A DNA stretch of 34,331 nt, taken from NCBI GenBank assembly GCA_903892645.1, contig CAITJF010000107.1, forward strand, positions 1-34,331, read 5' to 3'. Made by a program: the position numbers and the translations under genes. Source of the DNA: an uncultured Nitrosomonadales bacterium (lineage in GTDB: Bacteria > Pseudomonadota > Gammaproteobacteria > Burkholderiales > Gallionellaceae). Below are positions 3,057 through 34,290 of the stretch, piece after piece (position 1 is the stretch's first letter; every line of letters starts with the position of its first letter). A model generated the notes under the pieces. It was not told the DNA's origin. It made no database searches and saw only the letters and a program-made list of their open reading frames with translations.

Positions 3057-4598
3057 TTAGTAAACTGCAGTGGACTTGAATGACTCGATTGCTGCGGCCA
3101 AGGCTTTTTCATTGTCGGCTGACAAATCCTTGCTTGTCTCGATAGCATCCAGCAAGCCCTTGTGTTGGGATTTCACATAAACATGCAGCGCGGATTCGAA
3201 GGCAAGCACTTTGTTTACCGCCACGTCATCGAAAGAGCCCTTGTTAATCGCAAACAGCGTCACCGCCATCTGAGAAATAGACAGCGGCGCATATTGCGCC
3301 TGCTTCATCAATTCCATCACCAGGCGGCCACGTTCCAATTGTTTGCGGGTGGCTTCATCCAAGTCGGATGCAAACTGCGCGAACGCTGCCAGTTCACGGT
3401 ATTGCGCCAGTGCCAGGCGCACACCGCCGCCCAGCTTCTTGATCACCTTGGTTTGTGCCGCACCACCCACGCGGGATACGGATATACCTGCATTGATCGC
3501 GGGGCGAATACCGGCGTTGAACAAATCCGTTTCCAAAAAAATCTGGCCGTCAGTAATCGAAATTACGTTGGTCGGCACGAACGCCGATACGTCACCAGCG
3601 GCCGTTTCAATCACCGGCAGCGCTGTCAATGAACCGGTCTTGCCCTTGACTTCGCCCTTGGTGAATTTTTCGACGTATTCTGCATTTACGCGTGCAGCAC
3701 GCTCCAATAGGCGGGAGTGCAAATAGAACACGTCACCTGGGTAAGCTTCACGACCCGGCGGACGGCGCAACAGCAGGGATATCTGACGATAGGCCCAAGC
3801 CTGCTTGGTCAAGTCATCATAAATGATCAACGCATCCTGCCCGCGGTCGCGGTAGTACTCGCCCATGGTGCAGCCAGCATAAGGCGCCAGAAACTGCATC
3901 GCGGCGGAATCGGAAGCGGTTGCCGCAACCACGATGGTGAACTTCATCGCCCCGTGCTCTTCCAGCTTGCGCACCACGTTGGCAATGGTGGAGGCCTTCT
4001 GGCCGATCGCCACATAGATGCAGGTCATGTTCTGGCCAGCCTGGTTGATAATGGTGTCCACCGCCACTGCTGTCTTGCCGGTCTGGCGGTCGCCAATGAT
4101 CAGCTCGCGCTGGCCGCGACCGATAGGCACCATGGAGTCAATGGACTTCAAACCAGTTTGTACCGGCTGCGACACTGATTGACGCTCGATCACGCCGGGC
4201 GCAACCTTTTCGATCTTGTCAGTCAGTTTGGCGTTGACTGGGCCCTTGCCGTCGATAGGCTGGCCAAGCGCATTCACCACCCGGCCTATCAGTTCAGGGC
4301 CAATTGGCACTTCCAGAATGCGCCCGGTACATTTGACCGTGTCGCCCTCTTTGATATGCTCGTAGTCACCCAGCACCACGGAGCCGACCGAATCGCGCTC
4401 CAGGTTGAGCGCCAAGCCGAAGGTGTTGCCGGGAAACTCCAGCATTTCACCCTGCATCACGTCGGACAGGCCGTGAACACGCACGATACCGTCAGTTACG
4501 CTGACTACCGTACCTTCGGTGCGAGCCTGGGTCAGCGTTTCGAAATTCTCGATGCGGCTACGAATCAAATTACTAATTTCAGAAGGGTTGAGCTTCAT
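3057..4598 (-). CDS. atpA: F1F0 ATP synthase subunit alpha
   Basis: The 513-residue non-catalytic alpha subunit of F1 carries the nucleotide-binding P-loop GDRQTGKT and the following segment [25 protein letters not shown]. The N-terminus ([19 protein letters not shown]) is the usual membrane-distal helix that contacts the delta subunit, and length equals the family standard. It lies between atpH (31 bases upstream) and atpG. Confidence 0.99.
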
Positions 4599-4629
4599 CT
4601 GCTTTTCCTTAATTTCGATAAATCTGTTA

Positions 4630-5163
4630 TCAAGCCAAGGCGTTGGCCAGCTCGGAAAGGTGGGTGCGTGCGGAGCCGTCGATTACTTTATCTCCGGTGC
4701 GGATAATTATCCCGCCCAGCAATTCGCGGTCAGTTTTGCAGCTGAGCCTAATTTCACGACCCATGCGTTTTTTCATCGCCGCAGTAATTTTTTGCTTCTG
4801 TGCTTCATTCAGGTCAAACGCGGAAGTCACCATGACATCCACGCTTTTTTCAGCTTCTGCGCGCATGGTCTCGAACATTGCCGCAATTTCAGGCAGCAAG
4901 ATCAAACGCTGGCTTTCCACCACCAACTTGATAAAGTTGCGTCCGGGCGCGCTTATCTTGTCGCCGCACAATGCCAACATCAAGTCTTCAAGCTGGCTTC
5001 GGGCCACACGGGGGCTGGTGATCAGTGCGCGAACTTCCGGGTGGATCACAGCGTCTGCCGCCGATAGCAGCATATCCGACCAAACCTTCAGGTCGCCTTG
5101 CTTGCTCGCTGCGTCAAATGCGGCTATTGCATATGGGCGTGCGACGGAAATTGCTTCAGCCAT
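4630..5163 (-). CDS. atpH: F1F0 ATP synthase subunit delta
   Basis: The 177-residue delta subunit links the top of F1 to the peripheral stalk. The N-terminal domain begins [19 protein letters not shown] and the C-terminal region has the conserved stretch [31 protein letters not shown]. It begins 5 bases after the atpF stop and is followed by atpA. Length and order are normal. Confidence 0.97.
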
Positions 5164-5168
5164 GATAA

Positions 5169-5639
5169 TTAAATTTCCGCAACCAGTTTTTCGAGCAGGT
5201 CGTTGTGCGCCTTGGCATCAATTTCACGACCCAAAATTTTGCCCGCTCCCGCTAACGCAACGGCGGAAACTTGCGTACGCAGCTGCTCCTTGGCGCGGAA
5301 AACTTCCTGTTCAATTTCCGTGTTGGCACGTGCCTTTATATTGCCCGCTTCCACCTCGGCCTTAACTTTGGCTTCCTCAACAATTTCGCTGGCACGCTTG
5401 TCGCCCAACGCGATAATCTCGGCTACCTTTTCCTTGGCCTCACGCAGGAGTTCAGCGGAACGCCTGGCGGCCAAATCCAGATCGTGCTTGCCACGCTCGG
5501 CAGCGGCCAAGCCGTCTGCTATCTGCTTCCTGCGTGCCTCCAGCGCCGCCATGATGGGCGGCCACACAAATTTCATGCAAAACCACACGAACATGGCGAA
5601 CATGATCGTCTGGCCGAAAAGAGTCGCATTAATATTCAT
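5169..5639 (-). CDS. atpF: F1F0 ATP synthase subunit b
   Basis: The 156-residue peripheral stalk subunit has one N-terminal membrane helix ([29 protein letters not shown], residues 1-29). A long charged Ala/Glu/Lys-rich helix follows, which dimerises as the stator stalk and contacts delta. The family signature [21 protein letters not shown] is present. Length matches E. coli b (156 aa). It lies between atpE and atpH. Confidence 0.98.
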
Positions 5640-5686
5640 GCATGAACCTTTACTTGTTTGTTGAAAACAACTTTCGTTCCGATTGT

Positions 5687-5920
<234 letters not shown>

Positions 5921-5951
5921 TTACTCTCCTATTAAAAAATCAAATCAAAAA

Positions 5952-7153
<1,202 letters not shown>

Positions 7154-9509: not shown

Positions 9510-11425
9510 GCGCTGCTCTGCTCTTTTTCGGCTTTCTGGATTTTCTTGGTGCCTTGAAATCCGCGTTTCAGATGTACCAGTAGCAATGAAATCGCCGCCG
9601 GGGTCATGCCGGAAATGCGCGCCGCCTGTCCCACTGTCTCCGGCATGTGCTGGTTGAGTTTTTGCTGCGCCTCGATAGATAGCCCATGCACCGTACGGTA
9701 ATCCATGATTGCGGGCAATGCCAAGTTTTCATAGTGTCCTTGGCGTGCAATCTCGTCGCGCTGACGTTCAATATAGCCGTGGTATTTGGCTCCGATTTCT
9801 ACCTGCTCAGCCACTTTTTCATCGCTTACCTGCTCGCCAAGTCCCGGCAGGGTCATCAGGCTAGCGTAGCTTACATCTGGGCGGCGCAACAATTCATACA
9901 ACGTGTACTCACGCTCTATGCCCTTGCCCAACACCCGCTCCGCATCTTCCTGCAACAGCGTTTTTGGGCTGACCCAAACAGATTTCAGGCGCTCCTGTTC
10001 GCACACAATCGCACAGCACTTCTGCTCGAATGCCTGCCACCGGATGTCATTTACTACGCCCAGCCGACGGCCAATTTCTGTCAGGCGCAGGTCGGCGTTG
10101 TCTTCGCGCAACTGCAAGCGATACTCGGCGCGGCTGGTGAACATACGGTAGGGTTCCGATACCCCGCGCGTAATTAGGTCATCCACCAGTACGCCCAGAT
10201 AGGCTTCATCGCGGCGTGGGCACCAGCTTTCCTCATCTTGCGCCTGTAGCGCAGCGTTGAGGCCAGCCAGCAAGCCTTGTGCGGCAGCCTCTTCGTAGCC
10301 CGTGGTGCCATTGATTTGCCCGGCAAAAAACAGTCCGGCAATCGCCTTGGTTTCCAGTGAACGCTTCAGGCCGCGCGGGTCAAAATAATCGTACTCGATT
10401 GCATAGCCGGGGCGGGTGATATGCGCATTCTCCATTCCCTTGATGGAGCGCACCAGCGCCAACTGCACATCGAAGGGCAGGCTGGTGGAAATCCCGTTTG
10501 GGTAGATTTCATGGGTGCTCAGCCCTTCCGGCTCCAGAAAAATCTGGTGCGACTCCTTGTCGGCAAAGCGCGTGATTTTATCTTCGATGGACGGGCAGTA
10601 GCGCGGCCCCACCCCCTCGATCACCCCGGTAAACAGCGGCGAGCGATCCAGCCCGCCACGGATGATGTCGTGTGTGCGCTGGTTGGTATGGGTAATCCAA
10701 CACGGCAGTTGCCGCGGATGCTGCTGTGCATGCCCCATAAAGGAAAACACCGGCACCGGCGTATCGCCGGGCTGCTCGGTCATCACCGAATAATCCACGC
10801 TACGGCCGTCAATGCGCGGCGGCGTGCCGGTCTTCAGCCTGCCCGCCGGCAATTTGAGCTCGCGCAAGCGGTGTGCCAGCCTGACTGATGGCGGATCTCC
10901 TGCCCGTCCCGCCGGATAATTGGATAACCCGATATGGATCAAGCCCGACAGGAAAGTTCCGGTAGTCAGTACCACAGTTTTTGCGACAAAACGCAAGCCT
11001 AATTGGGTAACAACCCCGCATACCCGGTCTCCATCGACCAGCAGATCGTCCACCGCCTGTTGAAACAACCAAAGATTGGGCTGGTTTTCCAGTCTGTTAC
11101 GGATCGCCTGCTTATACAGCGCCCGGTCGGCCTGCGCGCGCGTGGCGCGCACCGCTGCACCCTTGGAGGAATTAAGGATACGAAACTGAATGCCTGCCTC
11201 GTCGGTAGCAGCCGCCATAGCGCCGCCCAAGGCGTCCACCTCCTTGACCAGATGCCCCTTGCCAATACCACCGATAGACGGGTTACAGGACATTAATCCA
11301 AGCGTCTCTATGTTATGCGTCAGCAGCAACGTGGCGCAACCCTTGCGGGCGCTGGCTAATGCGGCCTCCGTCCCGGCATGGCCACCGCCCACCACGATTA
11401 CATCGAAAGTTTTCGGGAATTCCAT
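9506..11425 (-). CDS. mnmG: tRNA uridine-5-carboxymethylaminomethyl modification enzyme MnmG
   Basis: This FAD-dependent enzyme works with MnmE to modify the wobble uridine of several tRNAs. I place the start at 11425 (639 aa) because the family begins there: [29 protein letters not shown], with the FAD dinucleotide-binding loop. An upstream in-frame ATG would add 26 unrelated residues. The conserved segment [23 protein letters not shown] follows. The C-terminal domain includes [37 protein letters not shown]. It heads an apparent operon with rsmG, parA and parB. Confidence 0.97.
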
Positions 11426-11517
11426 TATCTGCTTGAAGAAACGGCGGTCAGCCTGTTGCAATGAAGGCGCGCATGATACAACAAAACAACTCCAGCGCAG
11501 CAATCGTTCACCCCGTA

Positions 11518-11533
11518 TGTTTCACGTGAAACA
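11518..11533. promoter_or_regulatory. parS centromere site (perfect)
   Basis: The 16-bp palindrome TGTTTCACGTGAAACA matches the canonical chromosomal parS exactly. The symmetry extends outward with CCCG on the left and CGGG on the right (11512-11539, two mismatched flanking positions). It lies in the 122-bp gap between mnmG and mnmE, 2.7 kb from parA and about 3.8 kb left of the DnaA box. ParB from this same locus is expected to bind it. Confidence 0.95.
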
Positions 11534-11547
11534 TGCGGGCAGGTATT

Positions 11548-12888
11548 TTATTTGCCGATGCAGAACCGGCTGAATATCTCACCCAACAAGTCGTCGGCAG
11601 TAAATTCGCCGGTTATGGAGTTGAGGAATTCCTGGGAAAGGTGCAGCTCTTCGGCAAAGATTTCCACCCGGCTTGCCTCCCCTGCTGCGCGCTGCAAATG
11701 GTCTTGTGCAGCCAGCAGCACACGCACATGGCGCTCGCGTGCCATGAACACCCCCGCCTCCTGATGCCAGCCGATCAGCGCCAACAGCTTGTCGCGCAAC
11801 AACTCCAGCCCGGCGCCGGTCTTGGCGGACAGATAAATATGACATTCACCATCTAACTCTTCCACGTGCGCGGCTTGGTCAAGCAAGTCGGTTTTATTGA
11901 AAATGTGCAGCCGGGGAATATTCGGCGGCAGTTCATCGAGAATCTTCCGGTCAGCCGCGCATATACCCTGCCTGGCATCCAGCAAGAACAGAATGGCATC
12001 TGCTTTTTGCAGCGTGCTATGCGTGCGTGCTATGCCCAGCAATTCCACTTCATCCCGCGATTCGCGCAGACCCGCTGTGTCCATGATGTGCAACGGCACG
12101 CCACCAATTTGGATAGCCTGACGGATAACATCCCGCGTAGTGCCTGGAACCTCGCTGACCAAAGCCACCTCTTCTCCGCTCAAGCGGTTGAGCAGGCTGG
12201 ATTTGCCGACGTTGGGCTGCCCCGCCAATACGATATGTGCGCCTTCACGCAACAGGCTGCCTTGCTGCGCTAGGCCGAGGATTCTCTCCAGCTCTTTGCG
12301 CAATACACCTAGTTGCGCGTCGCGTAGCGCAATGTCCGGCGCCTCTATCCCTTCCTCAGGAAAGTCCAGCATGGCCTCCACCAGCATGCGCAACTGGATC
12401 AACTTACCTACTAGTTGCCGGATTGCCTGGGAAAACTCCCCCTGAAGCGAACGCATTGCGCTACGCACGGCTTGACTGGTGGTAGCATCAATCAGGTCAG
12501 CCACGCTTTCTGCCTGCGCCAAATCGAGCTTGTCATTGAGGAAGGCACGCAGGGTGAATTCCCCCGGTTGTGCAAGGCGCGCGCCCAATTCGAGACAGCG
12601 CTGCAACACCAATTGCAGCACGGCTGGGCCGCCATGCCCCTGCAATTCGAGCACATCTTCACCGGTATAGGAATGCGGAGTGGGGAAAAACAGAGCGATA
12701 CCTTGATCCAGAACCTGCCCTTCTGCATCAAGAAATAAAGAATAGGTTGCACATCGCGGGATGAGTGTCTTGCCCAGCATTGCTTCCGCGAATGTGGCGA
12801 GATTGCGCCCGGACACCCTGACCACACCAATACCGCCCCGCCCAAGGGCGGTGGCGATCGCCGCGATGATATCAGGCCTTGGCAACAC
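11548..12888 (-). CDS. mnmE: tRNA modification GTPase MnmE
   Basis: MnmE partners MnmG in wobble-uridine modification. The N-terminal folate-binding domain starts [24 protein letters not shown]. The G domain has [16 protein letters not shown] and NKTD. The C-terminus ends in FCIGK, carrying the family's final cysteine motif. No ATG fits the family start; I choose GTG at 12888 (446 aa), with TTG at 12885 equally possible. An ATG at 12948 would add 20 unrelated residues inside yidC. The chosen start overlaps the end of yidC by 17 bases. Confidence 0.95.
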
Positions 12889-30705: not shown

Positions 30706-31896
30706 CTATTCTTGTGCGAAACTGCAATGCAAGTGGATAACACGGAAATAAGGATCTGCCAGTGTGATTTCGGTGCATTTATGCTGTATCGCCTCAATCT
30801 CGGCGGGGTCGCAGTAAACCGCCGAGTCAAGAAATACATCGGCGTCAATTTTGCCATCCAGATAATGCAGCATGATGCGGCCATCGAGCGGTATGTCATC
30901 GCCCAAGCGTTCAGCCAGGTGCTTGAGTAAATCTTCGCGGCATGGCAAATGGGCGTTGGGTGCAAACTGCAAATCGTCTTCCGGATCAATATGCACCATT
31001 ACGTCCATCACGTGATGCTGGCGCAACACCGCTTGGCGCGCCGATTCGGCGATGTGATGGCCTTCGGATACACTGATTTTCGGGTCGACGAGAATGTGTG
31101 CGTCCACCAGCGCATGATCGGCCATCTTGCGTGTGCGCAGTTCATGCAGCCCGCGCACGCCGGGTGTTGACTGCAGCGTGGTGCGGATGGCTTCCACCTC
31201 TTCAGCGGAAAGGCCGGTGTCAATCAATTCGGCCAGTGCCTCAAGGGCAAATTTGCCGCCCATATGCGCAATCATCACCCCCACTACTGCGGCTGCGACC
31301 AGATCAAGGAAGGTGTAACCCATCAGGTTGCCGGAGATACCCGCCACGACCACCAGTGAAGACGCCGCATCCGAGCGCGCATGCCAGGCATTGGCGATGA
31401 GCATTTGCGAGCGCACGCGTTTGGCTACCGCCAGCATGTAGCGGAACATGCCCTCCTTGGCCGCCAGTGCGATGAGCGCAATCCAGAACGTGAATGGATG
31501 TACGGGCTGCACCAATTCTGGATGCTGCAGTCGCATCCCGGCTGCAAACAGCAGCACCACGCCCAGCGCCGCCAATGCAACGCCAAGGATAAGTGTGGCG
31601 GCAGTTTCTATGCGCGCATGGCCGTAGGGATGGTCGGCATCGGCATGACGGTTGCCATGGCGGTTGGCGAACAGCACCATGATGTCGGCCAACAGATCGG
31701 ACAGCGAATGCAGACCATCCGCCATCAGGGACTGCGAACGTCCGAGGTAACCCGCAACCACTTGCAGCACCGTCAGCAGCAGGTTGATAAAAATGCTGAT
31801 CCACGTGCTTTTTTGTGCGGCGGCAAAGCGCTCCGGGTGGGCAGGCTCGAAGGCGGCGGATTTGCTGTGAGTATGCGATTGGGTGTGATTTTTCAT
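30706..31896 (-). CDS. Cation diffusion facilitator family transporter (FieF/MamB-like)
   Basis: A 396-residue metal-proton antiporter predicted in the inner membrane. The N-terminus is His-rich (MKNHTQSHTHSKS). Membrane helices follow, with the metal-site sequence LMADGLHSLSDLLADIMVLFANRHGNRHADADHPYGHARIETAATL. The C-terminal cytoplasmic domain contains VDAHILVDPKISVSEGHHIAESARQAVL and a His/Asp-rich extension longer than that of E. coli FieF (300 aa). Iron, zinc, cobalt or manganese are possible substrates. I chose ATG 31896 over 31938 for homology; no clear ribosome-binding site is visible. Confidence 0.88.
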   Translation of the reverse strand: MKNHTQSHTHSKSAAFEPAHPERFAAAQKSTWISIFINLLLTVLQVVAGYLGRSQSLMADGLHSLSDLLADIMVLFANRHGNRHADADHPYGHARIETAATLILGVALAALGVVLLFAAGMRLQHPELVQPVHPFTFWIALIALAAKEGMFRYMLAVAKRVRSQMLIANAWHARSDAASSLVVVAGISGNLMGYTFLDLVAAAVVGVMIAHMGGKFALEALAELIDTGLSAEEVEAIRTTLQSTPGVRGLHELRTRKMADHALVDAHILVDPKISVSEGHHIAESARQAVLRQHHVMDVMVHIDPEDDLQFAPNAHLPCREDLLKHLAERLGDDIPLDGRIMLHYLDGKIDADVFLDSAVYCDPAEIEAIQHKCTEITLADPYFRVIHLHCSFAQE

Positions 31897-31919
31897 TGCA
31901 GTTGGGTATAGTATGCAAC

Positions 31920-31938
31920 GTGTTACGCAGAATAACAC
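31920..31938. promoter_or_regulatory. Inverted repeat in a divergent promoter region
   Basis: GTGTTA and TAACAC form a perfect 6-bp inverted repeat with a 7-base spacer, midway between the divergent starts of the cation transporter (31896) and the rhodanese (31975). The geometry suits a dimeric repressor or activator. The 78-bp gap contains AT-rich -10-like stretches on both strands but no convincing -35/-10 pair. No regulator gene is adjacent. Confidence 0.35.
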
Positions 31939-31974: not shown

Positions 31975-32427
31975 ATGGGTAAAATTACCGAGATTCTGAA
32001 TACTGCGCAAAACCGCGCCAAAGAAATGAACCTACCCTATGAAGGCGCGCTGTTGCCGGATGAGGCTTACGAAATCATGCAATTCGCGCCCGGCGCCAAG
32101 CTGGTGGATGTGCGCACGCGAGCCGAGTTTGACTGGGTGGGCCGCATCCCCGATGCAGTGGAAATCGAATGGGCCATCTATCCCGGCATGAAGCCCAACA
32201 CGCATTTCATCGCGCAGCTTGAGCAGATGGTGGACAAGGAAGCACTGGTAATGTTCATCTGCCGCAGTGGTATCCGCTCGCACAATGCCGCCATCACCGC
32301 TACACAGGCGGGTTATGCCGACTGCTACAACGTGCTGGAAGGCTTCGAGGGTGACAAGGGCGCAGACGGGCACCGCAATGTGCTGAATGGCTGGCGTACG
32401 TGCGGGTTGCCATGGGAGCAAAGTTAA
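31975..32427 (+). CDS. Rhodanese-like domain protein
   Basis: A 150-residue single-domain sulfurtransferase-fold protein. The active-site loop CRSGIRS begins at Cys96, and the fold entry is AKLVDVRTRAEFDWVGRIPDAVEIEW. It has no signal peptide, so it is probably cytoplasmic. The loop length of six residues after cysteine suits sulfur rather than phosphate chemistry; the sulfur donor is unknown. GGGAC precedes the ATG. It is divergent from the cation transporter and 31 bases before the next gene, with which it may be cotranscribed. Confidence 0.9.
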   Translation: MGKITEILNTAQNRAKEMNLPYEGALLPDEAYEIMQFAPGAKLVDVRTRAEFDWVGRIPDAVEIEWAIYPGMKPNTHFIAQLEQMVDKEALVMFICRSGIRSHNAAITATQAGYADCYNVLEGFEGDKGADGHRNVLNGWRTCGLPWEQS

Positions 32428-32458
32428 TTCACCGGTTTCAATAGGCACGGGGGCAATC

Positions 32459-33013
32459 ATGAACCAGCGGCAAAAACTCACATTGATTATTGCCGCGATC
32501 AATCTCGCCCTGATGTTGCTGTTTCCGCCATTTGATTCCTATTCGATCGCCAATTCCATCATCCCGATTTTCTCCGGATTCCATTTCGCTTTCAGCAAGG
32601 GAGTGAATGAAGCCGTCAATTCCGGCGTGCTGTTTCTCGAAACAGCAGTAGTGCTGATTAACGCCGGAATAGCCTGGCTGCTGCTACAGAGCAGAAAGGT
32701 GGTAACTCTCCGCAAGGTCAACTACCAGAACGCAACGCTGGTGGTCGTGGCAGTTAATTTGGTGGTGATCCTGCTGTTCCCGCCGTTTGAAAACTACAGT
32801 GCGGTAACGCGCGCCATCCTGCCGAGCTTCCAGGGGTTTTATTTTATTTTTGCGGCACCCCACAAGCACGTTATCGTCACCACTTTGCTCTATATCGAAG
32901 TGATATTCATGCTGGTCAACGGTGGATTGCTCTGGCTCATGTTCAAGGAAAGGACGCAGCTCGTCCTTACGCCGGAAGAAGAGATGAAACTCCTGCGCGA
33001 GCTAAGGAAATAA
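32459..33013 (+). CDS. Unrecognised membrane protein built from two tandem homologous modules
   Basis: I do not recognise this 184-residue protein. It contains four hydrophobic helices (about 7-25, 56-76, 92-110 and 140-162). The two halves are clearly homologous: residues 9-73 align with 94-159. Shared features are NL...LLFPPF(D/E).YS at 15-29 and 100-114, GF.F.F at 40-45 and 126-131, an in-membrane Glu at 61 and 147, Asn at 68 and 154, and Trp at 73 and 159. The C-terminus is charged (PEEEMKLLRELRK). A GGGGG run precedes the ATG; an earlier in-frame ATG overlaps the rhodanese gene. Confidence 0.75.
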   Translation: MNQRQKLTLIIAAINLALMLLFPPFDSYSIANSIIPIFSGFHFAFSKGVNEAVNSGVLFLETAVVLINAGIAWLLLQSRKVVTLRKVNYQNATLVVVAVNLVVILLFPPFENYSAVTRAILPSFQGFYFIFAAPHKHVIVTTLLYIEVIFMLVNGGLLWLMFKERTQLVLTPEEEMKLLRELRK

Positions 33014-33030
33014 TTCCGGGTTTGCGGGGA

Positions 33031-33855
33031 TTACGCCGCAGACCAGTTCACCATGCCGCTGTATGCCGTACCCAGCACCACCAAACCAAACACGATGCGA
33101 TACCAGGCAAACACCGTAAAGTCGTGGTGACTGATGAAGCGCAACAGCCAGCGCACACACAGGAAGGCGCTGATGAATGACGTAATGCCGCCCGCGACGA
33201 ACATGCCGATATCTTCCGCATGGAACAGATGGCGGTATTTGACGACTTCATAAACCGTGGCGGCAAACAGCGTGGGGATGGCGAGGAAGAAGGAAAACTC
33301 CGTCGCCGCCTTGCGCGACAGCCCGAAGAACAGCCCGCCGATGATCGTGGCGCCGGAGCGCGACGTGCCGGGAATCAACGCCAGCGCCTGCGCGCAGCCA
33401 ACCTTCAGCGCGTCCTTCCAACCCATATCATCCACCGCTTCGACGGTAATCCTGTGATCGCGTTTTTCTGCCCACAAGATGAAAATACCGCCGACAATGA
33501 AAGCCAGCGCCACCGGCACCGGCGCAAACAGATACTGTTTGATTTTGCTGGCGAACAGCAGCCCCAGCACGGCGGCGGGCATGAAAGCGACGATGAGATT
33601 GAGCGCAAAGCGCTGTGCCGCCTGTTCGCGCGACAGGCCGCTGACCACGGCGGCAATCTTCGCGCGGTATTCCCAGCACACCGCCAGAATCGCGGCGAAC
33701 TGAATCACGATCTCGAACACCTTGCCCTTCTCGTCGTTGAAATCGAGCAAGTCGCCCGCCAGAATCAGGTGGCCGGTGCTGGAGATGGGCAGAAATTCGG
33801 TAAGGCCTTCGACGATGCCGAGAATGGCGGCTTTAAGCAGCAGAATAGTATCCAT
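33031..33855 (-). CDS. uppP: Undecaprenyl-diphosphatase UppP (BacA)
   Basis: The 274-residue membrane phosphatase recycles the lipid carrier for peptidoglycan and gives low-level bacitracin resistance. The two signature motifs are [19 protein letters not shown] (about residues 16-34) and [20 protein letters not shown]. Multiple membrane helices follow. I start at ATG 33855 for homology; an ATG 13 codons upstream lies in a palindromic repeat. No clear Shine-Dalgarno is seen. It converges with the duplicated membrane protein across only 17 bases. Confidence 0.96.
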
Positions 33856-33870
33856 AAATTCAAGAGGCTC

Positions 33871-33938
33871 GTCATGCCGGGCTTGACCCGGCATCCAGTG
33901 GTTTTATTCGACTGGATTCCGGCTTTCGCTGGAATGAC
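33871..33938. repeat. Dispersed palindromic repeat upstream of uppP
   Basis: Two hairpins lie side by side: ATGCCGGG-CTTGA-CCCGGCAT in 33871-33898 and ATTCCGGC with its imperfect complement GCTGGAAT in 33912-33938. The whole is bounded by GTCAT and ATGAC, with CATCCAG and CTGGATT in the middle. This matches a class of intergenic palindromes common in proteobacteria, recalled rather than searched. It lies 15 bases before the uppP start and would be part of the uppP leader if transcription begins near 33967. Confidence 0.75.
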
Positions 33939-33973
33939 AACTTGGTTGTAATCCGTTAATTGACAGGTGCGCG

Positions 33974-34107: not shown

Positions 34108-34290
34108 ATGACAACCGTATCTTCGGCTGCTATTGATGACATGAGCAATCAGGGAATTCATCTGGTTGTTCCCGAGTCCCTGAAAAAATCAAAGGAAACT
34201 TGCTACAACGGCAAGGCCAACGTAATCACGTTCCGCGAATTTTTCGACGAAGAGATTTCTTCGAAGAGACCACGCTTCCGAAGAATCTAA
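34108..34290 (+). CDS. Small hypothetical protein, 60 residues
   Basis: I do not recognise this protein. AGGAG lies six bases before the ATG, which supports it as a real gene; an in-frame ATG at 33967 has no such signal. The sequence is soluble and mixed in charge, with a Ser/Asp-rich start, HLVVPESLKKSKETC in the middle and a strongly basic tail SSKRPRFRRI. No signal peptide or membrane segment is present. A palindromic repeat starts three bases after the stop. Function cannot be inferred. Confidence 0.6.
   Translation: MTTVSSAAIDDMSNQGIHLVVPESLKKSKETCYNGKANVITFREFFDEEISSKRPRFRRI

Follow-up and report, generated by a model that had tools for sequence, protein, structure and literature searches.

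The 184-residue protein encoded in the window (the whole stretch of DNA analyzed, 34,331 nucleotides in length) is, judging from its sequence, a bacterial two-copy branch of a family of small membrane hairpins that is named here the FPPx module family, in which a transmembrane helix (TM) is followed by FPP(F/Y/W), G(F/Y)xF and a second TM, and whose bacterial and phage members appear to be united by their match to a common profile. The protein belongs to a hitherto unnamed family and its novelty lies in carrying two copies of what is otherwise a small membrane hairpin of phage type. This assignment links an orphan bacterial membrane protein with orphan phage proteins through a module that is absent from curated libraries, and it allows both to be annotated.

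The coordinates of the gene, its modules, its conserved residues and its neighbors are listed in Table 1. The ATG at 32459 was preferred as the start codon because all 36 aligned homologues begin there, as does the window protein; an alternative longer open reading frame (ORF) from 32387, which lies inside the rhodanese gene, was set aside on the same grounds. Comparison with a 76%-identical homologue (L007) gave a dN of 0.145 against a dS of 1.61, and the protein is therefore under purifying selection and the coding is real. The internal tandem duplication described in the initial annotation was borne out: residues 1–84 and 86–167 share 37% identity across 81 aligned residues, and their local BLOSUM62 alignment scores 174, compared with a mean of 26.5 (SD 4.8, maximum 54) for 2000 shuffles (z ~31). 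FPPF(D/E), GF.F.F and the Glu, Asn and Trp residues recur at matching places, as had been described, with an offset of 85 before and 86 after a one-residue gap. In the longer motif LLFPPF(D/E).YS given in that annotation, FPP and the acidic residue are kept, but homologues have F, Y, H or V at position 25 and differ at position 28; the strict core is N..(6)..FPP.(D/E) instead.

Conservation was counted in 37 sequences, comprising the window protein and 36 aligned homologues from 40 loci in one genome-contig scan, which together form a shallow alignment. The initial annotation had staked its reading on the conservation of the Glu, Asn and Trp positions in homologues, and these are retained in 35–37 of the 37 sequences. 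F41 and F127 are each present in 37/37 sequences, the invariance of N54 is confined to the first half, and no invariant or near-invariant Cys was found in the 37-sequence alignment. Overall, the sequence observations of the initial annotation were confirmed, and its interpretation held in part only.

Table 1. Features of the window and of the two phage contigs carrying single modules (phage coordinates refer to those contigs).
Feature	Position	Strand	Basis or remark
FPPx-family gene, 184 aa, duplicated four-helix membrane protein (predicted)	32459..33013	+	Stop codon included; 36 aligned homologues; AlphaFold2
Module 1, residues 1-84	32459..32710	+	Half-versus-half alignment, AlphaFold2, conservation
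Module 2, residues 86-167	32714..32959	+	Half-versus-half alignment, AlphaFold2, conservation
FPPFD motif, residues 22-26, predicted periplasmic end of TM1	32522..32536	+	F, P, P and D each 37/37
FPPFE motif, residues 107-111, predicted periplasmic end of TM3	32777..32791	+	FPPF 37/37, E111 36/37
Asn15 in TM1	32501..32503	+	37/37; symmetry mate Asn100 at 32756-32758, 37/37
Glu61 in TM2	32639..32641	+	35/37; symmetry mate Glu147 at 32897-32899, 36/37
Asn68 in TM2	32660..32662	+	37/37; symmetry mate Asn154 at 32918-32920, 37/37
Trp73 in TM2	32675..32677	+	36/37; symmetry mate Trp159 at 32933-32935, 36/37
Rhodanese-domain protein, neighbor, not judged part of the system	31975..32427	+	PF00581 E 9e-13
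Cation-efflux (CDF) transporter, neighbor only	30706..31938	-	PF01545 E 1e-40
BacA-family (undecaprenyl-diphosphate phosphatase) gene, neighbor only	33031..33894	-	PF02673 E 3e-88
Single module, FPPW, 82 aa, phage contig L119	4001-4249		Profile A2 30 bits
Single module, FPPF, 84 aa, phage contig L130	10233-10487	-	Profile A2 30 bits

An AlphaFold2 model of the window protein (pLDDT 79, pTM 0.69; both loops at low confidence, in blocks of 61–72) places in module 1 a TM1 at residues 3–21, short β-elements at 24–27, 37–41 and 51–53, and a TM2 at 55–75, and in module 2 a TM3 at 89–106, β-elements at 109–112, 124–127 and 137–139, and a TM4 at 141–161. The middle linker and the tail contain on average 4.4 and 4.7 Lys and Arg residues (K+R), respectively, and the loops contain 1.2 and 1.8; the two FPP...GFxF loops are poor in K+R and were therefore placed in the periplasm by the positive-inside rule. 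Because each repeat contains two helices, the two repeats are predicted to be parallel. The structure prediction and the charge distribution point to an N-in/C-in topology, in which each module would run from the cytoplasm through a TM, a periplasmic FPP(F/Y/W)...G(F/Y)xF hairpin and a second TM back to the cytoplasm.

The description of the protein as an unrecognized membrane protein in the initial annotation still holds, since neither the protein nor its family gave a match above the cut-off in Pfam, NCBIfam, PADLOC or the PDB sequences. Two weak candidates were rejected: PF10801 (DUF2537), which scored 13.3 bits against a gathering threshold of 23.2 and was matched in only 2/37 members, and phrog_11096 from PHROGs, which was weak in 18/37 members (best 8e-5) and whose matches in 299 genomes excluded the window gene and had the appearance of frames unrelated to the family. 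A tblastn search of phage and plasmid records with the whole protein, its halves and the phage modules gave no match, and no relative came from scanning viral contigs for degenerate peptides derived from the family alignment. A made-up FPPW probe sequence produced chance matches only and was rejected after checking, and a whole-genome pattern search likewise returned chance frames. A literature search for membrane motifs of the FPPF or FPPW type yielded no paper.

A structural search with Foldseek yielded a single confident match of the window model in BFVD, namely A0A516LWQ3, an unnamed viral protein of 92 aa (prob 1.00; TM 0.76 when normalized to the length of the target; rmsd 1.7 across 83 columns; 26% identity). 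Because family sequence searches of viral collections had failed, IMG/VR was scanned for a DNA pattern encoding FPP(W/F/Y) and, after it, G(F/Y)xFxF, and ORFs were scored with a module profile (A2) that was built from the bacterial halves only. The ORFs of L130/L154 and L113/L119 scored ~30 bits over their full length (E ~2e-7 for 10,000 sequences), and no other ORF among the 13,326 in the returned loci, of which many contain the pattern fortuitously, scored above 14.6 bits; most other DNA-pattern matches in viral contigs were rejected on profile score. A reverse search with the L113 ORF returned family halves in G007, G070 and the window genome, and with the L130 ORF the window gene was the best match in 100 genomes (E 7e-6, 34%). 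The single-module homologues that the initial annotation had suggested seeking are thus represented by two examples in phage contigs, on which profile and reverse searches agree. A 121-aa ORF in other viral contigs (L164, L165 and L236), with the layout TM-FPPY-GYGFIF-Glu-TM plus a charged tail, scores 8 bits with the profile and is possibly a more distant single-module relative.

The phage single modules have the layout TM - FPP(W/F) - GYxFIF - TM. Both carry Gln at the place of Glu61 and have no equivalent of Asn15 or Asn68; this argues that these residues are dispensable for the core fold and that they may serve the two-module form. In an AlphaFold2 model of the L130 protein the elements follow one another in the same order, and A0A516LWQ3 is again its sole confident BFVD match, with an rmsd of 1.7–2.0 across both models; this model is supportive and not independent, because family halves stood in its alignment. 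A tree was built from 44 halves together with the two phage modules; it is limited to 84 columns and has many weak forks and a long L119 branch. All C-halves, including those of the paralogues, group together (97/98), with the phage modules branching outside (99/96). Such a shape fits a single old duplication that preceded the spread of the family.

The family is patchy and restricted to one bacterial order in the sampled genomes. Its gene was found in 6/100 near relatives of the window genome and in 16/399 genomes of the same order (~4%; 15 clear, one at E 0.009), and among 398 genomes drawn from the phylum the window's own is the only one that carries it. Three sampled genomes of the window's own genus are without the gene, and the gap between rhodanese and bacA is ~47 bp in G002 (same genus) and G004 (same family), versus 603 bp in the window, so that the gene at this site was either gained in the lineage of the window or lost cleanly in the others. 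The rhodanese/bacA interval is available with and without the gene among close relatives (L007 and L275 compared with window positions 32428–33030) and could serve to time the gain or loss. Family members also occur in metagenome bins labeled as Anaerolineaceae (L045) and Bordetella parapertussis (L046), which are probably binning or naming errors.

The window protein is tentatively proposed, with a function argued from analogy, to be an accessory inner-membrane adaptor or regulatory protein formed as a single-chain pseudo-dimer of the phage-related FPPx hairpin. The buried residues Asn15/100, Glu61/147, Asn68/154 and Trp73/159 would pack the two hairpins against each other, and the paired periplasmic aromatic-proline hairpins would form a contact surface for a partner, for which another membrane protein, a sensor, an enzyme or lipid head groups are candidates. 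The protein would accordingly act as an adaptor or regulatory subunit and not as a pathway enzyme or transporter. Helix packing, which the initial annotation had also named, is the simplest role for the buried Asn, Glu and Trp residues; strongly conserved Glu/Asn pairs within a membrane could equally carry ions or protons. No single neighboring gene is kept across the family and the neighbors change from clade to clade, which would fit an adaptor or regulatory subunit; reached by exclusion and analogy, this reading is offered as plausible and falls somewhat short of an even chance. A wider and rather doubtful extension is that temperate phages and bacteria have in common, in the FPPx hairpin, a membrane module not described before, whose single phage copy, placed in the lysogeny region, alters the host envelope or excludes other phages and whose β-proteobacterial two-copy fusion became coupled to various partners, including a membrane nucleotide cyclase. 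If the phage copies do act in exclusion or lysogenic conversion, this would be simple to test in laboratory strains.

The phage setting also bears on an unlikely alternative, in which the window protein is a domesticated phage superinfection-exclusion or lysogenic-conversion protein, that is, a hairpin hindering the entry of incoming phage DNA that was duplicated and kept as an accessory defense gene. The single modules come from two temperate phage contigs that are unrelated to each other, and in each the module lies near a helix-turn-helix (HTH) regulator gene: in L119, an HTH gene (3544–3972) is followed in the same direction by the module, by two more ORFs, the first of them small, and by an integrase gene (4959–6134), and in L130 the module, which has an HNH ORF beside it, lies on the same strand as a cI/YdaS-like HTH gene (11223–11636) and downstream of it. 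In lambdoid phages, such near-regulator sites often hold genes expressed from the prophage. The patchiness of the bacterial gene and its empty site in relatives also suit an accessory defense gene, and phage proteins that block DNA entry are often prophage-made inner-membrane proteins (PMC10883804). However, the near-repressor prophage setting is known from two phage contexts only and holds for the phage single modules, not for the duplicated bacterial protein, whose copies lie outside prophages and defense islands in the loci seen and which PADLOC does not recognize. Moreover, both halves have been strongly conserved since the old duplication, unlike fast-evolving exclusion genes.

The conservation of Glu61/147 and Asn15/68/100/154 within predicted helices, together with the CDF transporter gene close by in the window, might instead suggest a small transporter, ion channel or quinone- or proton-handling protein that works through intramembrane Glu and Asn pairs, in line with the ion, proton or quinone handling named in the initial annotation. 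This is distinctly unlikely, since by helix count and charges the repeats are predicted to be parallel and not inverted, the phage modules have replaced the Glu by Gln and kept neither Asn, no transporter family was matched in Pfam or NCBIfam, and the neighbors across the family are not related to transport.

Gene neighborhoods were compared across 46 loci, of which 41 have 500 nt or more upstream. The tRNA thiolation gene ttcA is located upstream of the family gene in nine Gallionella-type loci, and an FMN/FAD oxidoreductase gene is located downstream in L022, L025, L026, L033 and L034. In ten Rhodocyclaceae loci (L017, at 4145–4888, L020, L021, L022, L024, L027, L031, L035, L036 and L044), a paralogue of ~246 aa, designated paralogue A, is encoded in tandem ~850 bp upstream of the shorter family gene. 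In L039, L040, L042 and L043, the family gene shares an ATGA with the preceding gene, which encodes a membrane class III adenylate/guanylate cyclase (PF00211, E 1e-54), so that its start codon overlaps the cyclase stop codon; this suggests translational coupling. The overlap hints that, in the cyclase-overlap clade, the protein may serve signaling enzymes as a sensor subunit or membrane partner, with separate recruitment elsewhere; as an account of the family it is decidedly improbable, because the arrangement is confined to four loci of one divergent clade and is not present in the window genome.

The distance of 31 bases from the rhodanese stop codon to the gene was given correctly in the initial annotation, but neither the conserved rhodanese neighborhood that it had proposed to look for nor a functional tie to the rhodanese was supported: rhodanese is adjacent in three of the 46 loci, two of them distinct (the window, and L002/L007, which are the same sequence), and other clades have ttcA, the paralogue, the cyclase or the oxidoreductase, so that a functional link is unsupported because no single neighbor is kept. 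A sulfur-trafficking membrane protein working with rhodanese, for which the short intergenic distance and the upstream ttcA genes might speak, is highly improbable, given that the adjacency is limited to the window and one relative, that the gene is absent at 3/4 of the relatives' rhodanese loci inspected and at one more without bacA, and that the family has no conserved Cys. Upstream of bacA, positions 33874–33945 of the window resemble a unit of a dispersed palindromic repeat, with a sequence of the form TCATGCCGGGCTTGACCCGGCATCCAG...GGATTCCGGC...GGAATGACA, and near the window end a 60-aa ORF beginning MTTVSSAAIDDMSNQGIHLVVPESLKKSKETCYNG (34109–34290, + strand) is without a homologue in the related loci examined.

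Among known systems, the claudin-like four-helix proteins (TARP/stargazin and claudins) likewise have four helices with β-elements between helix pairs, but they are without a direct tandem repeat and show no sequence match to the window protein; claudin/TARP-like chains matched the window model at a Foldseek E of 0.35 or worse (prob 0.13) and at VIA Z 4.1–4.5 over ~100 residues, below the level that the tool regards as meaningful, and both these and the GPCR fold matches lie within the tool background. The SMR transporters of the EmrE type are also small, linked to duplication and pseudo-symmetry, and carry a membrane Glu, and the SMR family in Pfam (Multi_Drug_Res) matched none of the 37 members; the halves of SMR proteins are antiparallel (PMC3962082, PMC9574504), whereas the repeats of the window protein are predicted to be parallel from the two helices per repeat and the K+R-poor loops. 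HK97 gp15 and P22 SieA are small prophage-made inner-membrane superinfection-exclusion proteins (PMC10883804), whose genomic setting is similar to that of the phage single modules and to which no sequence relation was found. Paralogue A shares the duplicated core with the window family (35–46% identical by half) but has a longer, charge-rich cytoplasmic tail ending in GPERRxGGDRR, and its first motif is FPPFLDN rather than FPP.D. The only confident fold match, A0A516LWQ3, is viral and has one module only; the phage ORFs of L119 and L130 likewise have one module, in a phage immunity-type region. With its single- and two-copy forms and the predicted parallel orientation, the FPPx family would offer a clean case of the passage from a membrane hairpin to a single-chain pseudo-dimer.
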